A DNA stretch of 64,000 nt, from the NCBI RefSeq assembly GCF_001424565.1, contig NZ_LMOL01000016.1, positions 160,523 through 224,522 on the forward strand, given 5' to 3'. How positions within the stretch are numbered: position 1 is the stretch's first letter; every line of letters begins with the position of its first letter. Shown here piece after piece: positions 38,071 through 44,011 of this stretch. Source of the DNA: Arthrobacter sp. Leaf141. Its GTDB lineage: Bacteria; Actinomycetota; Actinomycetes; Actinomycetales; Micrococcaceae. The notes under the pieces are model-generated. The model did not search any database, had not been told where the DNA came from, and was given only the letters and a program-made list of their open reading frames with translations. The position numbers and the translations under genes are program-made.

Positions 38071-39528
38071 TTAAGCCCGGCCGGCGCCGTCCCGTCCCAG
38101 GGCCGGGACGGGAAGCCCGAAGATGTCCCGGAGAGCATATGTTGCGGCGTGCAGGCCGGGCATGCCGGTCACCCCCGGACCCGGCGGTGTTGAGGAAGAG
38201 CATATGTACACCCCGCGCAGCGGTGTGCGCCACGGGACCCGGGAAACCACGGGGCGCTGGATCAGGCCGCGGAGGTCCATGGTGCCGGCGCTGAAGTCCC
38301 CGCCAACGTAGTTTCGGTTGTATTCCCCCAGCTGCGCCGCCGTGACGGCCTGCGACTGGACCACCAGGTCCCGGAAGCCGGGCGCAAAGCGCTCGAGCTG
38401 GCCGGTGATGGCAGCCGTCATATCGACGGTGGATCCGGCAGGGACGTGGCAGTACGTCCAGAGGGTGTGCCGTCCGGCGGGGGCCCGGCTGGCATCGAAC
38501 GGCGAGGGCTGGGCCACCAGGACATAGGGCTTTTCGGGGTGGCGGCCGCTGGCCACCTGGTTTTCGGCGTGGGCCAGCTCCGCCCTGGTCCCGCCCACGT
38601 GGACGGTTCCGGCCGCTGCCAGGGACCGGGCCGCCCACGGCACGGGCCCGGACAGGATGTAGTCCACCTTGCAGGAACCGTTCCCGTAGCGAAAAGCCTC
38701 CAGTGACCTCCGGTAACCGGCCGGCAATGAACTTCCTGCCAGGTTTGCCAGTCCCTGCGGCGCGACGTCCAGGAGCGTGACGCACGACGGCGGCAAGGCA
38801 GCCAGGCTGTCCACTGCGGAACCGGTGTGGATGACGCCGCCGTGGGCGCTGAGGTCCCCGGCCAATGCCCCGGCGATGGACGCCGAACCGCCGACGGGGA
38901 TTGGCCAGCCGTCCCGGTGACCCAATGCGGCCAGCAACAGCCCCGCCCCGGCCGCAGCCAGGGATGGAAGGTGGGAGACGGCGTGGGCGGCAACACCACT
39001 CAGCAACGATGGTGCAAGGTCTTCGCGGAACCTGGTGTTCCAGAGCCGGGAACCCTGCTCCAGCGTGCGCAGACCGAAGAGGGCAGCGACGAAGGGATGC
39101 CGGGGGATGCGCAGCAGTTGGTTCTGGGTGAACTCAATGACCTCGTCACGGTGCTGGACCAACGGGCCCATCAGCTGACGGTAAGCCCGCCCGTCGCGTC
39201 CCAGTTCAGCAGCCGTCCGGTCCAGCGACCGGTACGCCAGCGCTGCCCGGCCACCGCCCAGGGGTGAGCCGAAGGATATGTCCGGTGTGGCAAAACGGAT
39301 CCGCTCCGACAGTTCAAAGGCGCGGAAGAACGGCGACGCCAGTGCCATTGGATGCACGGCAGAGCATACGTCGTGGAAATGCCCTGGCTGCATCAGCTCG
39401 GCCGTACGTGTCCCGCCGCCAACGGCCTGGGCCGCTTCGAACACTTCGACTGACAGCCCCGCTCTGGCCATGATTACCGCCGCTGCGAGCCCATTGGGTC
39501 CCGCACCCACCACATTGACGTCAGCCAT
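38071..39528 (-). CDS. FAD-dependent oxidoreductase, phytoene desaturase-like (CrtI/PYROXD2 type)
   Basis: 485-aa flavoprotein. N-terminal dinucleotide-binding motif VVGAGPNGLAAAVIMARAGL with the acidic end of strand 2 (VEVFEA) and GGGTRTAEL, as in CrtI-like amine oxidases. The C-terminal FAD-contact region reads VYICSSSTPPGPGVTGMPGL. The lack of any other carotenoid gene nearby makes a carotenoid role unsupported; members of this branch are usually annotated only as NAD(P)/FAD-dependent oxidoreductases. Its ATG lies 8 bases inside the end of the GT87 gene, so the two are coupled. Confidence 0.88.
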   Translation of the reverse strand: MADVNVVGAGPNGLAAAVIMARAGLSVEVFEAAQAVGGGTRTAELMQPGHFHDVCSAVHPMALASPFFRAFELSERIRFATPDISFGSPLGGGRAALAYRSLDRTAAELGRDGRAYRQLMGPLVQHRDEVIEFTQNQLLRIPRHPFVAALFGLRTLEQGSRLWNTRFREDLAPSLLSGVAAHAVSHLPSLAAAGAGLLLAALGHRDGWPIPVGGSASIAGALAGDLSAHGGVIHTGSAVDSLAALPPSCVTLLDVAPQGLANLAGSSLPAGYRRSLEAFRYGNGSCKVDYILSGPVPWAARSLAAAGTVHVGGTRAELAHAENQVASGRHPEKPYVLVAQPSPFDASRAPAGRHTLWTYCHVPAGSTVDMTAAITGQLERFAPGFRDLVVQSQAVTAAQLGEYNRNYVGGDFSAGTMDLRGLIQRPVVSRVPWRTPLRGVYICSSSTPPGPGVTGMPGLHAATYALRDIFGLPVPALGRDGAGRA

Positions 39529-40984
39529 CGGATAAAGCCTTCCTGACGGGGGAGCCGGTGAGGGCTCCCGCGGCCGTCCGCAGCCGGTCAGGCGCCCCGT
39601 CGAAAGGTCCGCCGTGCGGATCGTCGGCGTGTTGGCGGCGGACCGGGTCCAGATTGGGGTCGTAGATGTCCCAGATGACCCGAATCATCAGATATGCCAC
39701 AGCAAGCATATGAATGACGACGGCCAGGACGTAGTACGGCATGTCGAGGTTGTGCTGCGGGGGCCCACCGCTGGTGACCTGGCCAAGGTACAGCCAAATA
39801 GCGGCCCAATGCAGGCCTTCGATTCCCTGCCACACCAGGAAGTCGCGCCAGCGCGGACGTGCCAGCGCGAAGAGCGGGATCAGCCAAATGACGTACTGCG
39901 GCGAATACACCTTGTTGGTGAGGATAAAGGCGGCAACAATCAGGAACGCCAGCTGGGCCAGGCGCGGCCTGCGGGCCGAGCTGAGGGCCACCGCGGCGAT
40001 GCCGGCGCAGGCCAGCAGAAAGAGTCCAATGGACAGCAGGTCCACGGCCGTGCGATCCAGCCCGGCCATTCCGATCCTTGCGGCCACAAGGTTGTAGATG
40101 AACCACGGCGAGCTGTAGCCCGCGTCGCGGTCCGCGCTGAACTGGAAAAAGTAAGCCCAGCCGGCGGGGTTGGCGGCCGCAAACGGCAGGTTGACTGCAG
40201 CCCACGAGGCCGCAGCCGCGGCAGCTGCTATCAGCATCGGCCTGAACCTGCCGGTCCGGACGGCCAGCAGGACAATCGCGCCGAGGATCAGCAGGGGGTA
40301 CAGCTTCGTTGCCGCAGCCAGCCCGATCAGGATGCCGGCGGCCAGTGGCCTGTGCCGGGCGAAGAAGTACATGCCTAGGGCCAGCAGCGCGGCAGCCCAG
40401 AGGTCCCAGTTGATGGTCCCGGCCAACACGATCCCCGGGGCTACTGCGATCATCGCGGCATCCCAGGGGCGCCGGCCGGCCAGGCGCGCCGTAGCCAGGA
40501 CGGTCACCAGCGCCGCAAATGCCAGCAGGGCCGCATTGATGTCGAAGTAGCCCAGGACGCGTGCGTCCGATACACCGGTTCCGGGCACCAGCCAGGCGGT
40601 GATTCCCGCGATGACACCGATCAGGACCGGATATTCGAACTGGCTTCCGCTGCCGGCGATGGGGAACAGTCCGTCCGCCAGGCCCCGGTTGCGGAAGAGT
40701 TCGGGGAAGTCCGAATAGCAGGTCGCATAGAACTGGGTGGGGGTCTCCCACCCATTGACCCGGCAGTAGCCTTTCAGGACCACCCCGACCAGGGCGGCAG
40801 CGACCGTGAGGAGGATCAGGACCCGGTCAACCGTAAAGATCCCCGGTGTGATCACCCCCGGTTCCGACCTGGCACCCAGCGGCCCCCCGGCGATCTCCGT
40901 GAAGTTCCTGAGGGTCAGGTCGCTGCGGGTGGGAACCACCAGACGGGACCGGCCGCGGCGTTCCGGGGGCGTGGTCTCCTGCAT
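39521..40984 (-). CDS. GT87-like polyprenyl-phosphate-mannose mannosyltransferase (DUF2029)
   Basis: 487-aa GT-C membrane glycosyltransferase with about 10-12 helices. Features typical of the GT87/DUF2029 family: ATCYSDFPELFRNRGLADG in the first outer loop with the catalytic Asp, QFEYPVLIGVIAG, and NWDLWAAALLALGMYFFARH, then AAATKLYPLLILGAI. Such enzymes use polyprenyl-phospho-mannose on the outer face to build lipomannan-like glycans. Divergent from the GT39-like gene at 41050 over a 65-base gap. Confidence 0.85.
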   Translation of the reverse strand: MQETTPPERRGRSRLVVPTRSDLTLRNFTEIAGGPLGARSEPGVITPGIFTVDRVLILLTVAAALVGVVLKGYCRVNGWETPTQFYATCYSDFPELFRNRGLADGLFPIAGSGSQFEYPVLIGVIAGITAWLVPGTGVSDARVLGYFDINAALLAFAALVTVLATARLAGRRPWDAAMIAVAPGIVLAGTINWDLWAAALLALGMYFFARHRPLAAGILIGLAAATKLYPLLILGAIVLLAVRTGRFRPMLIAAAAAAASWAAVNLPFAAANPAGWAYFFQFSADRDAGYSSPWFIYNLVAARIGMAGLDRTAVDLLSIGLFLLACAGIAAVALSSARRPRLAQLAFLIVAAFILTNKVYSPQYVIWLIPLFALARPRWRDFLVWQGIEGLHWAAIWLYLGQVTSGGPPQHNLDMPYYVLAVVIHMLAVAYLMIRVIWDIYDPNLDPVRRQHADDPHGGPFDGAPDRLRTAAGALTGSPVRKALSDG

Positions 40985-41049: not shown

Positions 41050-42549
41050 GTGGAAACCCAGAACGCCGGAGCCAAAATTGCCGGGCGCCGCCGTGCCTTG
41101 ACCACTGAACGGCCGTGGCTTGCACCCGTCGGCATCGGACTCCTCGCCTTCTGCGCGGCGTTTGTCGGCTCCTGGGTCCCGTCGTTCTGGGATGACGAAA
41201 TTGCCACCATTTCGGCTGCTGGACGGTCGCCGGCAGAACTCCTGCTCCTGTTGCAGTCCGTGGACGCCGTCCACGGCATCTACTACTTCCTGATGCACCT
41301 GTGGACCGCTGTTTTCGGTTTCTCCGAGGTGGCGCTGCGGTTTCCTTCCGCCTTGGCCGTTGGTGCTGCGGCAGGCCTGACAGTGGTCCTGGGGCGGAGG
41401 CTGGGATCCGCACCCCTGGGGGTGGCGGCCGGGCTGGTGTTGGCGCTCCTGCCCCGCATGGTGTGGGCAGGCACGGAGTCACGCCAGTCTGCACTGACAA
41501 CCGTGCTGGCAGTTCTCCTGACGCTGCTGCTGTTGCGGGCCTGGGAATCCAACCGGCCGCTGGACTGGGTGCTGTACAGCTTGTGCGCGGTGGTGGGAGT
41601 CGGCGTTTTTATGTTCTTTGCGCTGGCCATCGTGGCCCATGCGGTGGCCGCCGTTGTCCTCCGGCGCAGGATCGTGGCCACGTTGGCGGCCGGTGCCGTT
41701 GCAGGCGTGGCCGCCCTGCCCTTCCTGGTGTTTGCCTTGGGACAAAAGGCACAGGTGGAGTGGATCCAGAACCGTTCGCTGACGGAGCATCTGGTGACGG
41801 CAGTGGTGAAGCAGTACTTCTACGGCGATGACAGGCCAACAGGGAACCTCCCGCCGCAGTGGGTGCTGGCGTTTGTGGTGGTTCTGGGCCTGCTGCAAGG
41901 CGCACTGGTGGTCCGGGGCGTGTGGGCGGCCCGGCTGGACGCGCAGCTCCGCCAAGCAATGGTCCTGGGACTGGCCGGCGTGCTGGTCCCTGTGGGTGGG
42001 CTGCTCCTGGCCAGCCTGATCACCCAACCTGTTTATGTGGCGCGGTACCTGACGTTCACGGCGCCGGCGTTCGCCCTGCTGGTCGGTATGGGCCTGATCA
42101 GCCTGCCGCGGAGGCGCGTAGGGTTCCGATTCCTGGTGGCGGGGCTGGTCCTCTGCAGCCTCGTCCCGCAGCTCACGCTTAAGAGCCTGGTCAATGAGCC
42201 GCCGGACACCGAGCGGCGTATCGCTGCCCTGGTGGACCAGGAGCCCGAACGCCCGGCGGCAGTGGTGTTCGGAGCTCCGTACCTGCGGGACATGGTGCTG
42301 GCCTACCCGGACGATTTCGCCGGCATCGCCGACCTGTCCCTGGCCGCCAGTCCGGCCACTTCCGGCTCGCTGTGGGGTGTTGATGCCCCGGTTGCCCCGG
42401 ACCAGTTGACCGGAAAGGGTGAGGTCCTGTTTGTCGGCACAGGCGGCGGCACTCCCGGCGATACGTCGGCATTTGGGGCCGCGGGTTGCCGGGAGACAGG
42501 GAACCAGCCCTTCCAGCGCCTGGTGCTGATCTCCTTCGACTGCCCCTGA
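41050..42549 (+). CDS. GT39-like membrane glycosyltransferase (GT-C)
   Basis: 499-aa membrane protein with about 10 helices. The first extracytoplasmic loop holds SFWDDEIATISAAGRS, the Asp-Glu motif of protein-mannosyltransferase-like GT-C enzymes, and RFPSALAVGAAAGLTVVLG follows as in GT39 relatives. The C-terminal domain of about 120 residues is extracytoplasmic. GTG 41050 has no ribosome-binding site; TATGGT at 41038-41043 lies six bases upstream, so the message is probably leaderless. Substrate is likely a polyprenyl-phosphate sugar. Confidence 0.85.
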   Translation: METQNAGAKIAGRRRALTTERPWLAPVGIGLLAFCAAFVGSWVPSFWDDEIATISAAGRSPAELLLLLQSVDAVHGIYYFLMHLWTAVFGFSEVALRFPSALAVGAAAGLTVVLGRRLGSAPLGVAAGLVLALLPRMVWAGTESRQSALTTVLAVLLTLLLLRAWESNRPLDWVLYSLCAVVGVGVFMFFALAIVAHAVAAVVLRRRIVATLAAGAVAGVAALPFLVFALGQKAQVEWIQNRSLTEHLVTAVVKQYFYGDDRPTGNLPPQWVLAFVVVLGLLQGALVVRGVWAARLDAQLRQAMVLGLAGVLVPVGGLLLASLITQPVYVARYLTFTAPAFALLVGMGLISLPRRRVGFRFLVAGLVLCSLVPQLTLKSLVNEPPDTERRIAALVDQEPERPAAVVFGAPYLRDMVLAYPDDFAGIADLSLAASPATSGSLWGVDAPVAPDQLTGKGEVLFVGTGGGTPGDTSAFGAAGCRETGNQPFQRLVLISFDCP

Positions 42550-42601
42550 ACACTGTTCCTGAGCCGCAGCAAAAGCCCACCGGCACCCGGCGGCGCCGCC
42601 G

Positions 42602-42647
42602 GAACGGCAAAGAGCCCACGCACCAGTGCGTGGGCTCTTTGCCGTTC
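42602..42647. terminator. Perfect 21-bp bidirectional terminator hairpin
   Basis: Two 21-base arms match perfectly around the 4-base loop CCAG; the arms begin GAACGGCAAAGAGCCC and end GGGCTCTTTGCCGTTC. It lies 52 bases after the GT39-like stop and 50 bases after the stop of the small minus-strand gene, so it can end transcription from both sides. There is no long U-run. Confidence 0.85.
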
Positions 42648-42697
42648 ATGGGGCTGGACGGAAATCATCGGCCCTCCTTTCCTGGACGGTGTGGACC

Positions 42698-42838
42698 TCA
42701 GCGCAGGCCCGACATCTGCTGGTGCAGGACGGCGAACACTTCTTCTCGGCGTTGCTCCAACAGTGCACTGTTGAACGAACCACGGCCGCGTACTGGCCGG
42801 GAACGGGCGAGCAGCAAGCGTTTGAGTCTTTTCATCAC
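42698..42838 (-). CDS. Small basic protein of unknown function (46 aa)
   Basis: A short gene not recognised from any family. It is supported by an almost perfect ribosome-binding site, GGGAGGTGAT, eight bases before GTG 42838 (an ATG follows at 42835). The product begins MKRLKRLLLARSRPVR after the start and ends EEVFAVLHQQMSGLR. The N-terminal half is strongly basic, the C-terminal half looks like an amphipathic helix with Glu/Arg pairs. It ends 50 bases before the strong terminator and lies downstream of the 31-aa gene on the same strand, so the two may form one small operon. Function unknown. Confidence 0.6.
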   Translation of the reverse strand: MMKRLKRLLLARSRPVRGRGSFNSALLEQRREEVFAVLHQQMSGLR

Positions 42839-43168
42839 GGAAATCACCTCCCGGGTTTTATCGTGAATTTGGGCATGACAATTAGGGTCCAATTTGCTGA
42901 TGCAAAAGAGGACTAATTTGGGCATTACGGGGCCTTGCCGGAAATGCACCGAATTTCCCCACGGCAGGATATTGCCGGCGGTACAGCACCGTCCCAAGGG
43001 GAAGCTGGTTCCGATTCAGGGAGGGCGGATGGTACCGCCGCCACGCGCCAGAGTCAGCGGGACTGCGTCAGCAGAACCGGGTCTGCGATCTGGCGTGGGG
43101 AAAGTCAGGCGTCCGGGACGGCCTGCAACGGGTGCCGCGGCTTTCCAGCCAAGCGGCAGGGAACGGGC
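42839..43168 (-). other. Spacer between the two small genes
   Basis: 330 bases without a recognisable gene. The 11-base sequence AATTTGGGCAT occurs twice in direct orientation (near 42865 and 42914), bracketing an AT-rich stretch that could hold a promoter or operator for the 46-aa gene. An in-frame extension of that gene upstream to 42997 exists but lacks a ribosome-binding site. Confidence 0.35.
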
Positions 43169-43264
43169 CTAGGCGCCGAAGTATCCCGCAAAAGCGCGCG
43201 CGTGGACAGCAGGGGCCGGGTCATTGGTGATGGTCATCTTCCATCCGCCAGTCAAAGTATTCAT
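43169..43264 (-). CDS. 31-aa peptide of unknown function with strong ribosome-binding site
   Basis: Very short open frame preceded by AAGGAGGTTGGGAAA and ATG 43264, one of the best Shine-Dalgarno matches in the window. The peptide begins MNTLTGGWKMTITN and ends HARAFAGYFGA; it has 5 Gly, 6 Ala and two aromatic residues near the C-terminus, no Cys and no membrane segment. Not recognised. It could be a regulatory leader, a small functional protein, or a precursor of a modified peptide; no modification enzyme is evident next to it. It lies 162 bases after the histidine-phosphatase stop. Confidence 0.55.
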   Translation of the reverse strand: MNTLTGGWKMTITNDPAPAVHARAFAGYFGA

Positions 43265-43426
43265 TTTCCCAACCTCCTTTTCAGCTATCCGTTGCACCAT
43301 TACCGGGTGCTACGCGGGCGAACGTCCGGGCAGAACGCCCTGGGACTAGGAATAAAAATACACCACAATTTGCGCTGTGACTACCAATTGCCGGTACTTT
43401 CAGGAAATTGGTTGAAAAGAAAGTCC

Positions 43427-44011
43427 TCAGAGTCCCCAGCGGACAATTGCCGGTGTTCTTTTGTCCCAGCCGAGTGTGCAGACTTTCGCGGTTCCCAAAA
43501 CAAAATGCCGGCCTTCCACGGCCGGCAATTCAAGCCACCGGGCCGTCAGGATCCGGGAAAAATGACCGTGGGCCACAATCAGGACGTTATCCATTCCGGA
43601 TTCGAGTACGCGGGCGATGATCTTGTCGGCCCGGGCCGCCACCTCATCCAGCGCTTCGCCGTTGGGGACGCCGTCCGTCCAGATCAGGTAGTCCGGATTG
43701 TCCTTGCGGATGAGGTCCGAACTGATGCCCTCGTAGTCGCCGTAATTCCACTCCACGGCCAGGGGCTCGTGCTGCGCGTCCGGGTAACCCGCCAGTTCGG
43801 CGGTCCGCCGCGCACGCCGGAGCGGCGAGGTCAGCACCAGGTCGAAGTCAACGCCGTCGAGGACCTTGCGGGCCTCCACCGCCTGCTGTTCGCCTTCGAC
43901 GGTCAGGGGGAGGTCTGTGAGGCCTGTGTACTGGCCGCTCTTGGACCATTCCGTTTCGCCGTGGCGCAGGATCCAGAGCTGGGGGCGGGGGGCGAACGCG
44001 GGAACTGTCAC
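43427..44011 (-). CDS. Histidine phosphatase family protein (phosphoglycerate-mutase-like)
   Basis: 194-aa cytosolic enzyme. N-terminal phospho-acceptor motif LWILRHGETEWSKSGQYTGL (RHGET), then LTSPLRRARRTAEL and the second catalytic His in VLIVAHGHFSRIL. SixA/CobC/GpmB-like; the substrate cannot be told. GTG 44011 overlaps the cca stop (GTGA), showing translational coupling; longer upstream frames lie inside cca. Confidence 0.92.
   Translation of the reverse strand: MTVPAFAPRPQLWILRHGETEWSKSGQYTGLTDLPLTVEGEQQAVEARKVLDGVDFDLVLTSPLRRARRTAELAGYPDAQHEPLAVEWNYGDYEGISSDLIRKDNPDYLIWTDGVPNGEALDEVAARADKIIARVLESGMDNVLIVAHGHFSRILTARWLELPAVEGRHFVLGTAKVCTLGWDKRTPAIVRWGL

Follow-up and report, generated by a model that had tools for sequence, protein, structure and literature searches.

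Two small open reading frames (ORFs) on the reverse strand of the window, the 64,000-nucleotide stretch of Arthrobacter sp. Leaf141 DNA that was analysed, are with moderate probability parts of one regulatory unit, in which the first frame, sORF1, is a translated uORF that probably senses translation initiation and controls the second, ORF2. sORF1 (43169-43264, (-)) comprises 31 codons with an ATG start and AAGGAGG ahead of it, and is here proposed to be a regulatory uORF. ORF2 (42698-42838, (-)) encodes a 46-aa basic small protein with a GTG start; its length may be 46 or 45 aa, because an ATG immediately follows the GTG. The SD sequence of ORF2, GGGAGGTGAT, lies at 42843-42852 (-) and is a 9-base match. 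Both ORFs and their near-perfect ribosome-binding sites, reported in an earlier note on this DNA, are present as claimed. Each of the two SD sequences matches the anti-SD complement over 9 bases; in the window's 45 non-overlapping frames of 150 or more codons, the best start within the first half of each reaches no more than 7, which bears out the further claim that these sites are better than those of most large genes. Among the papers listed by a literature search, none concerned this locus.

The locus DNA is present in 97 of 101 genomes of the genus, and the ORF pair is therefore not due to chance. The genus set was built from 117 locus ids, of which one was unmatched and 11, identical in the 200 bases around the start, were dropped, so that 105 loci were kept; one genus DNA match (G014) was left out of this set. 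ORF2 was found by pattern in 82 of these 105 loci, and L021 has an ORF2 that the finder missed. Within a sample of 295 family genomes, the sORF1 and ORF2 profiles matched 21 and 22 of the 24 genus genomes, respectively. The ORF2 profile also weakly matched four genomes of genus g19 (E 0.003-0.005), which reached 2e-16 to 3e-16 when two g19 sequences were added to the profile, an improvement that is partly by construction; the ORF2-like frame of g19 is preceded by AAGGAGG and a 30-codon ORF. Weak sORF1-profile matches in other genera (E 1.8e-4 to 0.009, 11 genomes) were judged to be chance hits, being located within other reading frames.

The phosphatase gene beside the pair served as an anchor in other genera. 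It was found in 32 of 61 genomes and 17 of 32 genera, giving 30 loci, of which 27 belong to other genera. The order of phosphatase, strong-SD short ORF (22-43 aa), spacer and 39-48 aa ORF recurs in 14 of these 27 loci, and it is present in 9 of the 15 other Micrococcaceae genera examined. Three loci (L185, L201, L202) have the first ORF alone and ten have neither, meaning that 14 of the 17 non-genus loci with the first ORF also have the second. Phosphatase matches G137 and G107 are outside the locus set, L196 covered just 425 bases behind the phosphatase, and L184, L199 and L200 contain other strong-SD small ORFs that were excluded from the counts. The two ORFs are undescribed, as the earlier note had it, and are conserved together. 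Of 30 further loci, 26 were scanned (L208-L233), 4 of these 26 being unparsed; in the 17 parsed loci that lie outside the family, no small ORF with an SD score of at least 7 occurs within about 1.5 kb behind the CCA-adding gene.

Among genus loci, the pN/pS of ORF2 is 0.18 among close pairs (n=225) and 0.34 among distant ones (n=198), with 0.08-0.18 over codons 17-47, as compared to 1.26-2.06 in shifted frames; here and below, the pairs are mutually non-independent. Since the in-frame values are far below those of the shifted frames, ORF2 is a protein gene, as had been supposed for the 46-mer, and, judged by these substitution patterns, it is under protein-level selection. Aligned ORF2 sequences from other genera are 12-36% identical to that of the window, and the 12 sequences in the alignment share a C-terminus composed of a hydrophobic residue followed by R or K. 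In L192 (g25), ORF2 diverges from its sister L193 after about 30 residues and runs to 79 aa, as if interrupted. Searches of Pfam, NCBIfam, PHROGs and PDB sequences gave no convincing ORF2 match, returning nothing or single chance-level hits: the best Pfam E-value was 0.017, for one of 48 ORF2 sequences, and the best PDB E-value was 0.34. The profile phrog_35516 was matched by 3 of 17 ORF2 members (best E 6.6e-5), and tblastn with the best-matching member retrieved just ten Vibrio phage records at E 0.06-0.2. A phage or plasmid origin of ORF2 was rejected, the tblastn results being negative or at chance level. Membership in DUF1127 (PF06568) was likewise rejected, as this family is absent from the Pfam matches of the 48 sequences at E up to 5; no DUF1127 match was found in the Leaf141 genome itself at E up to 1. 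AlphaFold2 predicts helices at residues 2-13 and 24-45 (mean pLDDT 75, pTM 0.37). A small basic two-helix protein of this kind could bind RNA, the ribosome or a membrane, which is the weakest step of our interpretation.

In sORF1, pN/pS of codons 9-31 is 0.75 in 264 close pairs and 1.04 in 1347 distant pairs, and 0.90-1.18 in shifted frames (1.04 and 0.90 for close pairs). This suggests little or no selection on the peptide, the close-pair value of 0.75 leaving room for weak constraint. The start codon is kept in 105 of 105 genus loci, and together with codons 2-8 (43241-43264, (-)) it is conserved at the nucleotide level, with zero synonymous differences in codons 2-8 across the same 264 and 1347 pairs. 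ACT TTG ACT is constant in the 100 loci without an inserted codon, and the remaining five loci have one extra codon ahead of the same ACT TTG ACT. Variants occur at codon 2 (ATT/ATG/AAT/AAG) and codons 6-8 (AGC/GGC/CGC, GGA/GAA, TGG/CGG), and each of them changes the residue. Because codons 2-8 vary non-synonymously only, selection there acts on nucleotides. The length of sORF1 is 31 codons in 68 of 105 loci and ranges overall from 25 to 44, and the loci with exactly 31 codons use three different stop codons. In L025, L098, L138 and L139 the frame is shifted by an insertion or deletion of one base beyond roughly codon 20, and the nucleotides that follow are still kept (CTCCT at the usual stop). 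Other genera encode unrelated peptides at this position.

The 31-mer, which ends in a FAGYFGA segment, had been tentatively suggested to be a signalling or precursor peptide. This segment is unconserved, and a peptide hormone or precursor was rejected on the pN/pS values and codon pattern; the variable length and the frame shifts likewise speak against the 31-mer as a peptide gene in its own right. A regulatory uORF fits the substitution pattern better. Leaders based on arrest peptides or amino-acid runs, such as TnaC, SpeFL, ErmCL, trp and ilv, represent a further class, and sORF1 has no conserved peptide or regulatory-codon run of that kind. At the sORF1 stop, C(U)CCU is kept in many genus loci, even after the frame shift, and is complementary to both SD sequences; the window has GCCTAGG in its place within the stop zone (43169-43185, (-)).

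A helix is predicted between the sORF1 SD sequence and sORF1's own codons; it does not account for the near-invariance of codons 1-8. Its 5' arm is the SD strand GGAGGTTGGG (43268-43277, (-)), where GGAGG occurs in 105 of 105 genus loci, and its 3' arm is formed by the C-rich codons CCCGGCCCCT (43211-43220, (-)), with 9 of 10 pairs in the window. For the genus, the predicted helix joins GGAGGUUGGG with CCCGGCCUC at codons 15-18, and a register with 10/10 pairs exists in 81 loci and one with 9/10 in the other 24. The best register is in the common codon phase in 99 of the 105 loci, and in the other six the usual stop region holds a site that scores higher. When 34 genus transcripts were folded by partition function, the sORF1 SD was predicted to be paired at 0.89 on average, mainly (0.64) with the sORF1 body, and the ORF2 SD at 0.84 without a consistent partner. 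A strong sORF1 SD need not mean high translation, since C-rich codons within sORF1 itself are complementary to it, and the high translation of sORF1 previously assumed from this site does not follow from it.

We scored the helix against 200 dinucleotide shuffles of the downstream stretch. In the window the z-score is -1.23, with 25 of 200 shuffles equally good, and within genus g1 it varies (-1.2 in the window, -2.1 in L176, -0.04 in L175). The sORF1 z-score for the genus is -1.90 (n=35, 15 at -2 or below), compared to control values of +0.41 (n=23) and +0.38 (n=12) for ORF2 SD sequences and -0.36 (n=10, one at -2 or below) for window open frames of at least 200 aa, keeping in mind that the best register was picked after the fact and that the loci are related by descent. 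Lower values were obtained in g19 (-3.7, -3.2), g18 (-2.8), g29 (-2.4), g5 (-3.9, -3.3), g25 (-3.3, -2.7) and g17 (-3.6, -2.5). The helix is weak in g26 (-1.6, -1.0), g28 (-1.3) and g31 (-1.3), and by the shuffle test it is absent in g7 (-0.02) and g32 (+0.3, 0.0).

Comparison of genera points to the helix being maintained, as compensatory pairs occur at helix positions 6-9. Both strands have changed together in g19 (GGAGGUUGC/GCAGCCUCC), g5 (GGAGGUGGGG/CCCCGCCUCC), g25 (GGAGGUGGGU/GCCCGCCUUC), g17 (GGAGGUGGG/CCCGCCUCC, with CCCACCUUC in a second g17 locus), g29 (GGCCACG/CGUGGCC) and g28 (GGAGGCC/GGCCUCU). The partner strand starts at +41, +44, +56, +65, +74 or +89 in seven genera (g1, g19, g18, g5, g25, g17 and g29), and despite this varying distance it keeps the same codon phase in all of them. 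Its codons read PAS/PAF or near forms, namely PAP (window), AAS (g19), PTF (one g17 locus) and VAN (g29). L187 (g26) is also in phase, with 8/10 pairs, and in g31, where the automatic search chose another register, NPAFI codons are in the common phase by eye; g28 and L203 depart from the common phase, as do the helix-less g7 and g32. A helix alone would be indifferent to codon phase and the phase is nevertheless kept, therefore it is suggestive, given that the genera are related, that sORF1 is translated through the C-rich codons with the identity of the peptide mattering little. A kissing contact between a 5' hairpin loop, AGUCA, and UGACU of codons 4-5, noticed by eye in part of the loci, was rejected since it is absent in the window, and the consensus fold computed for a single close clade (17 loci) lacked the variation to be informative.

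The base composition around sORF1 accords with a putative attenuation mechanism. From codon 9 of sORF1 through to its stop, C is more frequent than G in all 105 loci (0.38 vs 0.25); over the next 80 bases this holds for 82 of 105 genus loci and for 14 of 14 loci from other genera. For comparison, C exceeds G in 50/105 loci in the 5' leader, 59/105 in the bases 81-160 behind the stop, 98/105 at 161-240, 78/82 just before ORF2, 58/82 inside ORF2 (mildly) and 48/82 behind it; the excess ahead of and within ORF2 counts against the proposal. A terminator scan of the window found no terminator-like site between sORF1 and ORF2, and the genome encodes Rho. Under the mechanism we propose, prompt ribosome loading would lead to translation of sORF1, with its C-rich codons and the C-rich stretch that follows its stop staying accessible, whereupon a termination factor, most likely Rho, would halt transcription ahead of ORF2. 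If initiation were slow or stalled, this element would be covered, either by a ribosome waiting at the start or by the helix that the SD forms with the C-rich codons, and ORF2 would be transcribed. The output of ORF2 would then be reciprocal to translation capacity, as proposed for the duf1127_1 leader of Sinorhizobium meliloti.

The S. meliloti duf1127_1 leader is the closest described system. According to the part of its description considered here (PMC12218461), the ribosome-binding site of a uORF is predicted to pair with the uORF's own C-rich codons, a C-rich element lies behind the uORF, attenuation is ascribed presumably to Rho, and a small arginine-rich protein is encoded downstream. 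Synonymous change of the C-rich codons de-repressed a reporter, tetracycline and chloramphenicol were shown to be inducers, and in the authors' proposal the leader monitors translation efficiency along with the availability of ribosomes (PMC12218461). As far as that part of the account goes, both loci have in common a predicted pairing of the uORF ribosome-binding site with C-rich codons, a uORF whose RNA counts rather than its peptide sequence (judged here by comparison of loci), a C-rich element behind the uORF with no intrinsic terminator between the two ORFs, and a small basic protein downstream. They differ in that the output here is not DUF1127, the C-rich codons lie at about 14-32 rather than 3-10, the spacer is longer (266-436 bases between sORF1 and ORF2 in our loci), the phylum is different and the present locus is known from sequence alone. 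From these likenesses we infer the same working principle, and common descent is not claimed.

Other uORF systems resemble the locus less closely. The uORF in the whiB7 leader of Actinobacteria is said to respond to several ribosome inhibitors, whereas ORF2 encodes 46 aa without cysteine and is not a WhiB-like regulator. In E. coli, the short toiL uORF of topAI-yjhQ is a sensor of translation stress, stalling of ribosomes at its start codon included (PMC12121999); in the portion of that work used here, pairing masks the ribosome-binding site of the downstream gene and a toxin-antitoxin pair is controlled, while the helix predicted at our locus uses the uORF's own SD. The Corynebacterium ilvB-II leader is a case of a conserved actinobacterial uORF found by comparison (PMC10272879). 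Its peptides, as presented in the part of the study considered, are enriched in branched-chain residues ahead of a biosynthetic gene, unlike sORF1, which has no comparable run of a single kind of residue.

Three other explanations of the locus were weighed. That it consists of two independent small genes sharing a hairpin, with sORF1 giving a peptide that has its own role (signalling, secreted or toxic) and ORF2 coding for another protein, appears improbable: the start and SD in 105/105 loci, the 68/105 loci of exactly 31 codons with three stop codons and the close-pair pN/pS of 0.75 would be expected of a peptide gene, but distant-pair pN/pS is about 1, codons 2-8 show no synonymous change, lengths vary from 25 to 44 with four frame-shifted loci, and the peptides of other genera are unrelated. 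We also regard translational attenuation as unlikely, in which C(U)CCU at the sORF1 stop or other leader parts would mask the ORF2 SD and ribosomes would refold the leader. The toiL/topAI system operates in this way, as far as its description was considered (PMC12121999), C(U)CCU is present near the sORF1 stop in many genus loci, and the average predicted pairing of 0.84 for the ORF2 SD in 34 transcripts could reflect such masking. Pairing between the ORF2 SD and the stop zone, however, averages just 0.07, with partners varying by locus, and 266-436 bases separate the ORFs.

It is also conceivable, but in our judgement doubtful, that a separate upstream RNA, an sRNA that is possibly part-translated, acts in trans via the start region, and that ORF2 is expressed from a TAATTG..ATGCCC promoter of its own. 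The near-invariant codons 1-8, the spacer fold described below and the conserved block before ORF2 in 57/105 loci would accord with this; on the other side, the ORFs occur together in 14 of 17 non-genus loci having the first, no Rfam match was found, and the constant phase of the C-rich codons points to translation in cis and argues against an RNA acting in trans.

Taking attenuation through sORF1 as the preferred explanation, we tentatively raise the broader possibility, which we hold to be rather less probable than not, that the locus is a core translation-capacity sensor of Micrococcaceae, in which the rate of initiation on the uORF, read through the helix of SD and in-frame C-rich codons, would determine how much is made of a fast-evolving small protein acting back on ribosomes or RNA. 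If true, Actinomycetota and Alphaproteobacteria would both possess the switch, each with its own, unrelated output protein, and it would represent a recurrent class of regulator. The compensatory changes and constant codon phase in several genera lend evolutionary support to an attenuation principle described experimentally in one alphaproteobacterial leader, and tie this principle to a small-protein family beside the same phosphatase gene in Micrococcaceae. The cell's reading of ribosome availability becomes testable in an ordinary soil bacterium. The locus also serves as a warning that a superb SD ahead of a short ORF need not signal a functional peptide.

Several further elements were noted in the leader and spacer. 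Near the presumed transcript start, a possible hairpin (GTCC...GGAC; 43324-43346, (-)) was seen by eye behind the AT-rich block TGTATTTTTATT, which is conserved in an alignment of 105 upstream regions; a promoter scan of 42500-43600 was negative for sigma-70 consensus sites. The spacer folds better than its shuffles (z -3.95, 0/100) and contains the motif TCCCTGAATCGGAACCAGCTTCCCCTTGGGA (42992-43022, (-)), whose core TTCGGAACC is found with at most one mismatch 61-199 bases behind the sORF1 stop in 73 of 105 loci, mostly within CCCCAUAG...UUGUUGGGG. The spacer motif CCCCAUAGUUCGGAACC.AGCUUCUUGUUGGGG is missing in clades such as the MMTLTGEW one and has no Rfam match. A known riboswitch or sRNA was rejected for want of an Rfam match at threshold: with Rfam 15, the window region gave none at the gathering score (the one sub-threshold match was Leu_leader on the opposite strand, 20.1 bits, E 0.62), and eight loci gave no match at E up to 0.5.

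The repeats AATTTGGGCAT that the earlier note placed upstream of ORF2 exist and are 49 bases apart, the first copy of ATGCCCAAATT lying at 42915-42925 (-) and the second at 42866-42876 (-), inside the block TAATTGTCATGCCC. A TAATTG..ATGCC-type block precedes ORF2 in 57 of 105 loci (by pattern), and a spacing of about 50 bases between two copies of ATGCCCAAATT before ORF2 was also seen by eye in several relatives. The block or the repeat pair may be a promoter or operator, and a promoter of ORF2's own would count against the single regulatory unit. An RNA hairpin between the two ATGCCC repeats was rejected, as an alignment of the 57 loci contained no supported helix and the reverse strand folds equally well. 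In some of the relatives L005, L007, L010, L014 and L023, the ATG within the ATGCCC repeat is in frame with ORF2 and could yield an N-terminally longer form (by eye); in the window, it opens a 10-codon frame that ends at the ORF2 SD (by eye).

Behind ORF2, a near-perfect inverted repeat (42602-42647, (-)) is 96% self-complementary over 46 bases and sits between ORF2 and the convergent open frame 41050-42549 (+), where it is a possible terminator between convergent genes. The shared terminator of the earlier note is therefore present as a hairpin, its status as a terminator being assigned by shape, and the terminator scan of the window does not list it because no T run follows the whole stem. 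G+C-rich hairpins were seen by eye behind ORF2 in relatives as well. In relatives L010, L014, L023, L031 and L008, the counterpart of frame 39521-40984 (-) starts soon behind ORF2, while in the window the convergent, membrane-protein-like frame 41050-42549 (+) intervenes between the two, apparently as an insertion.
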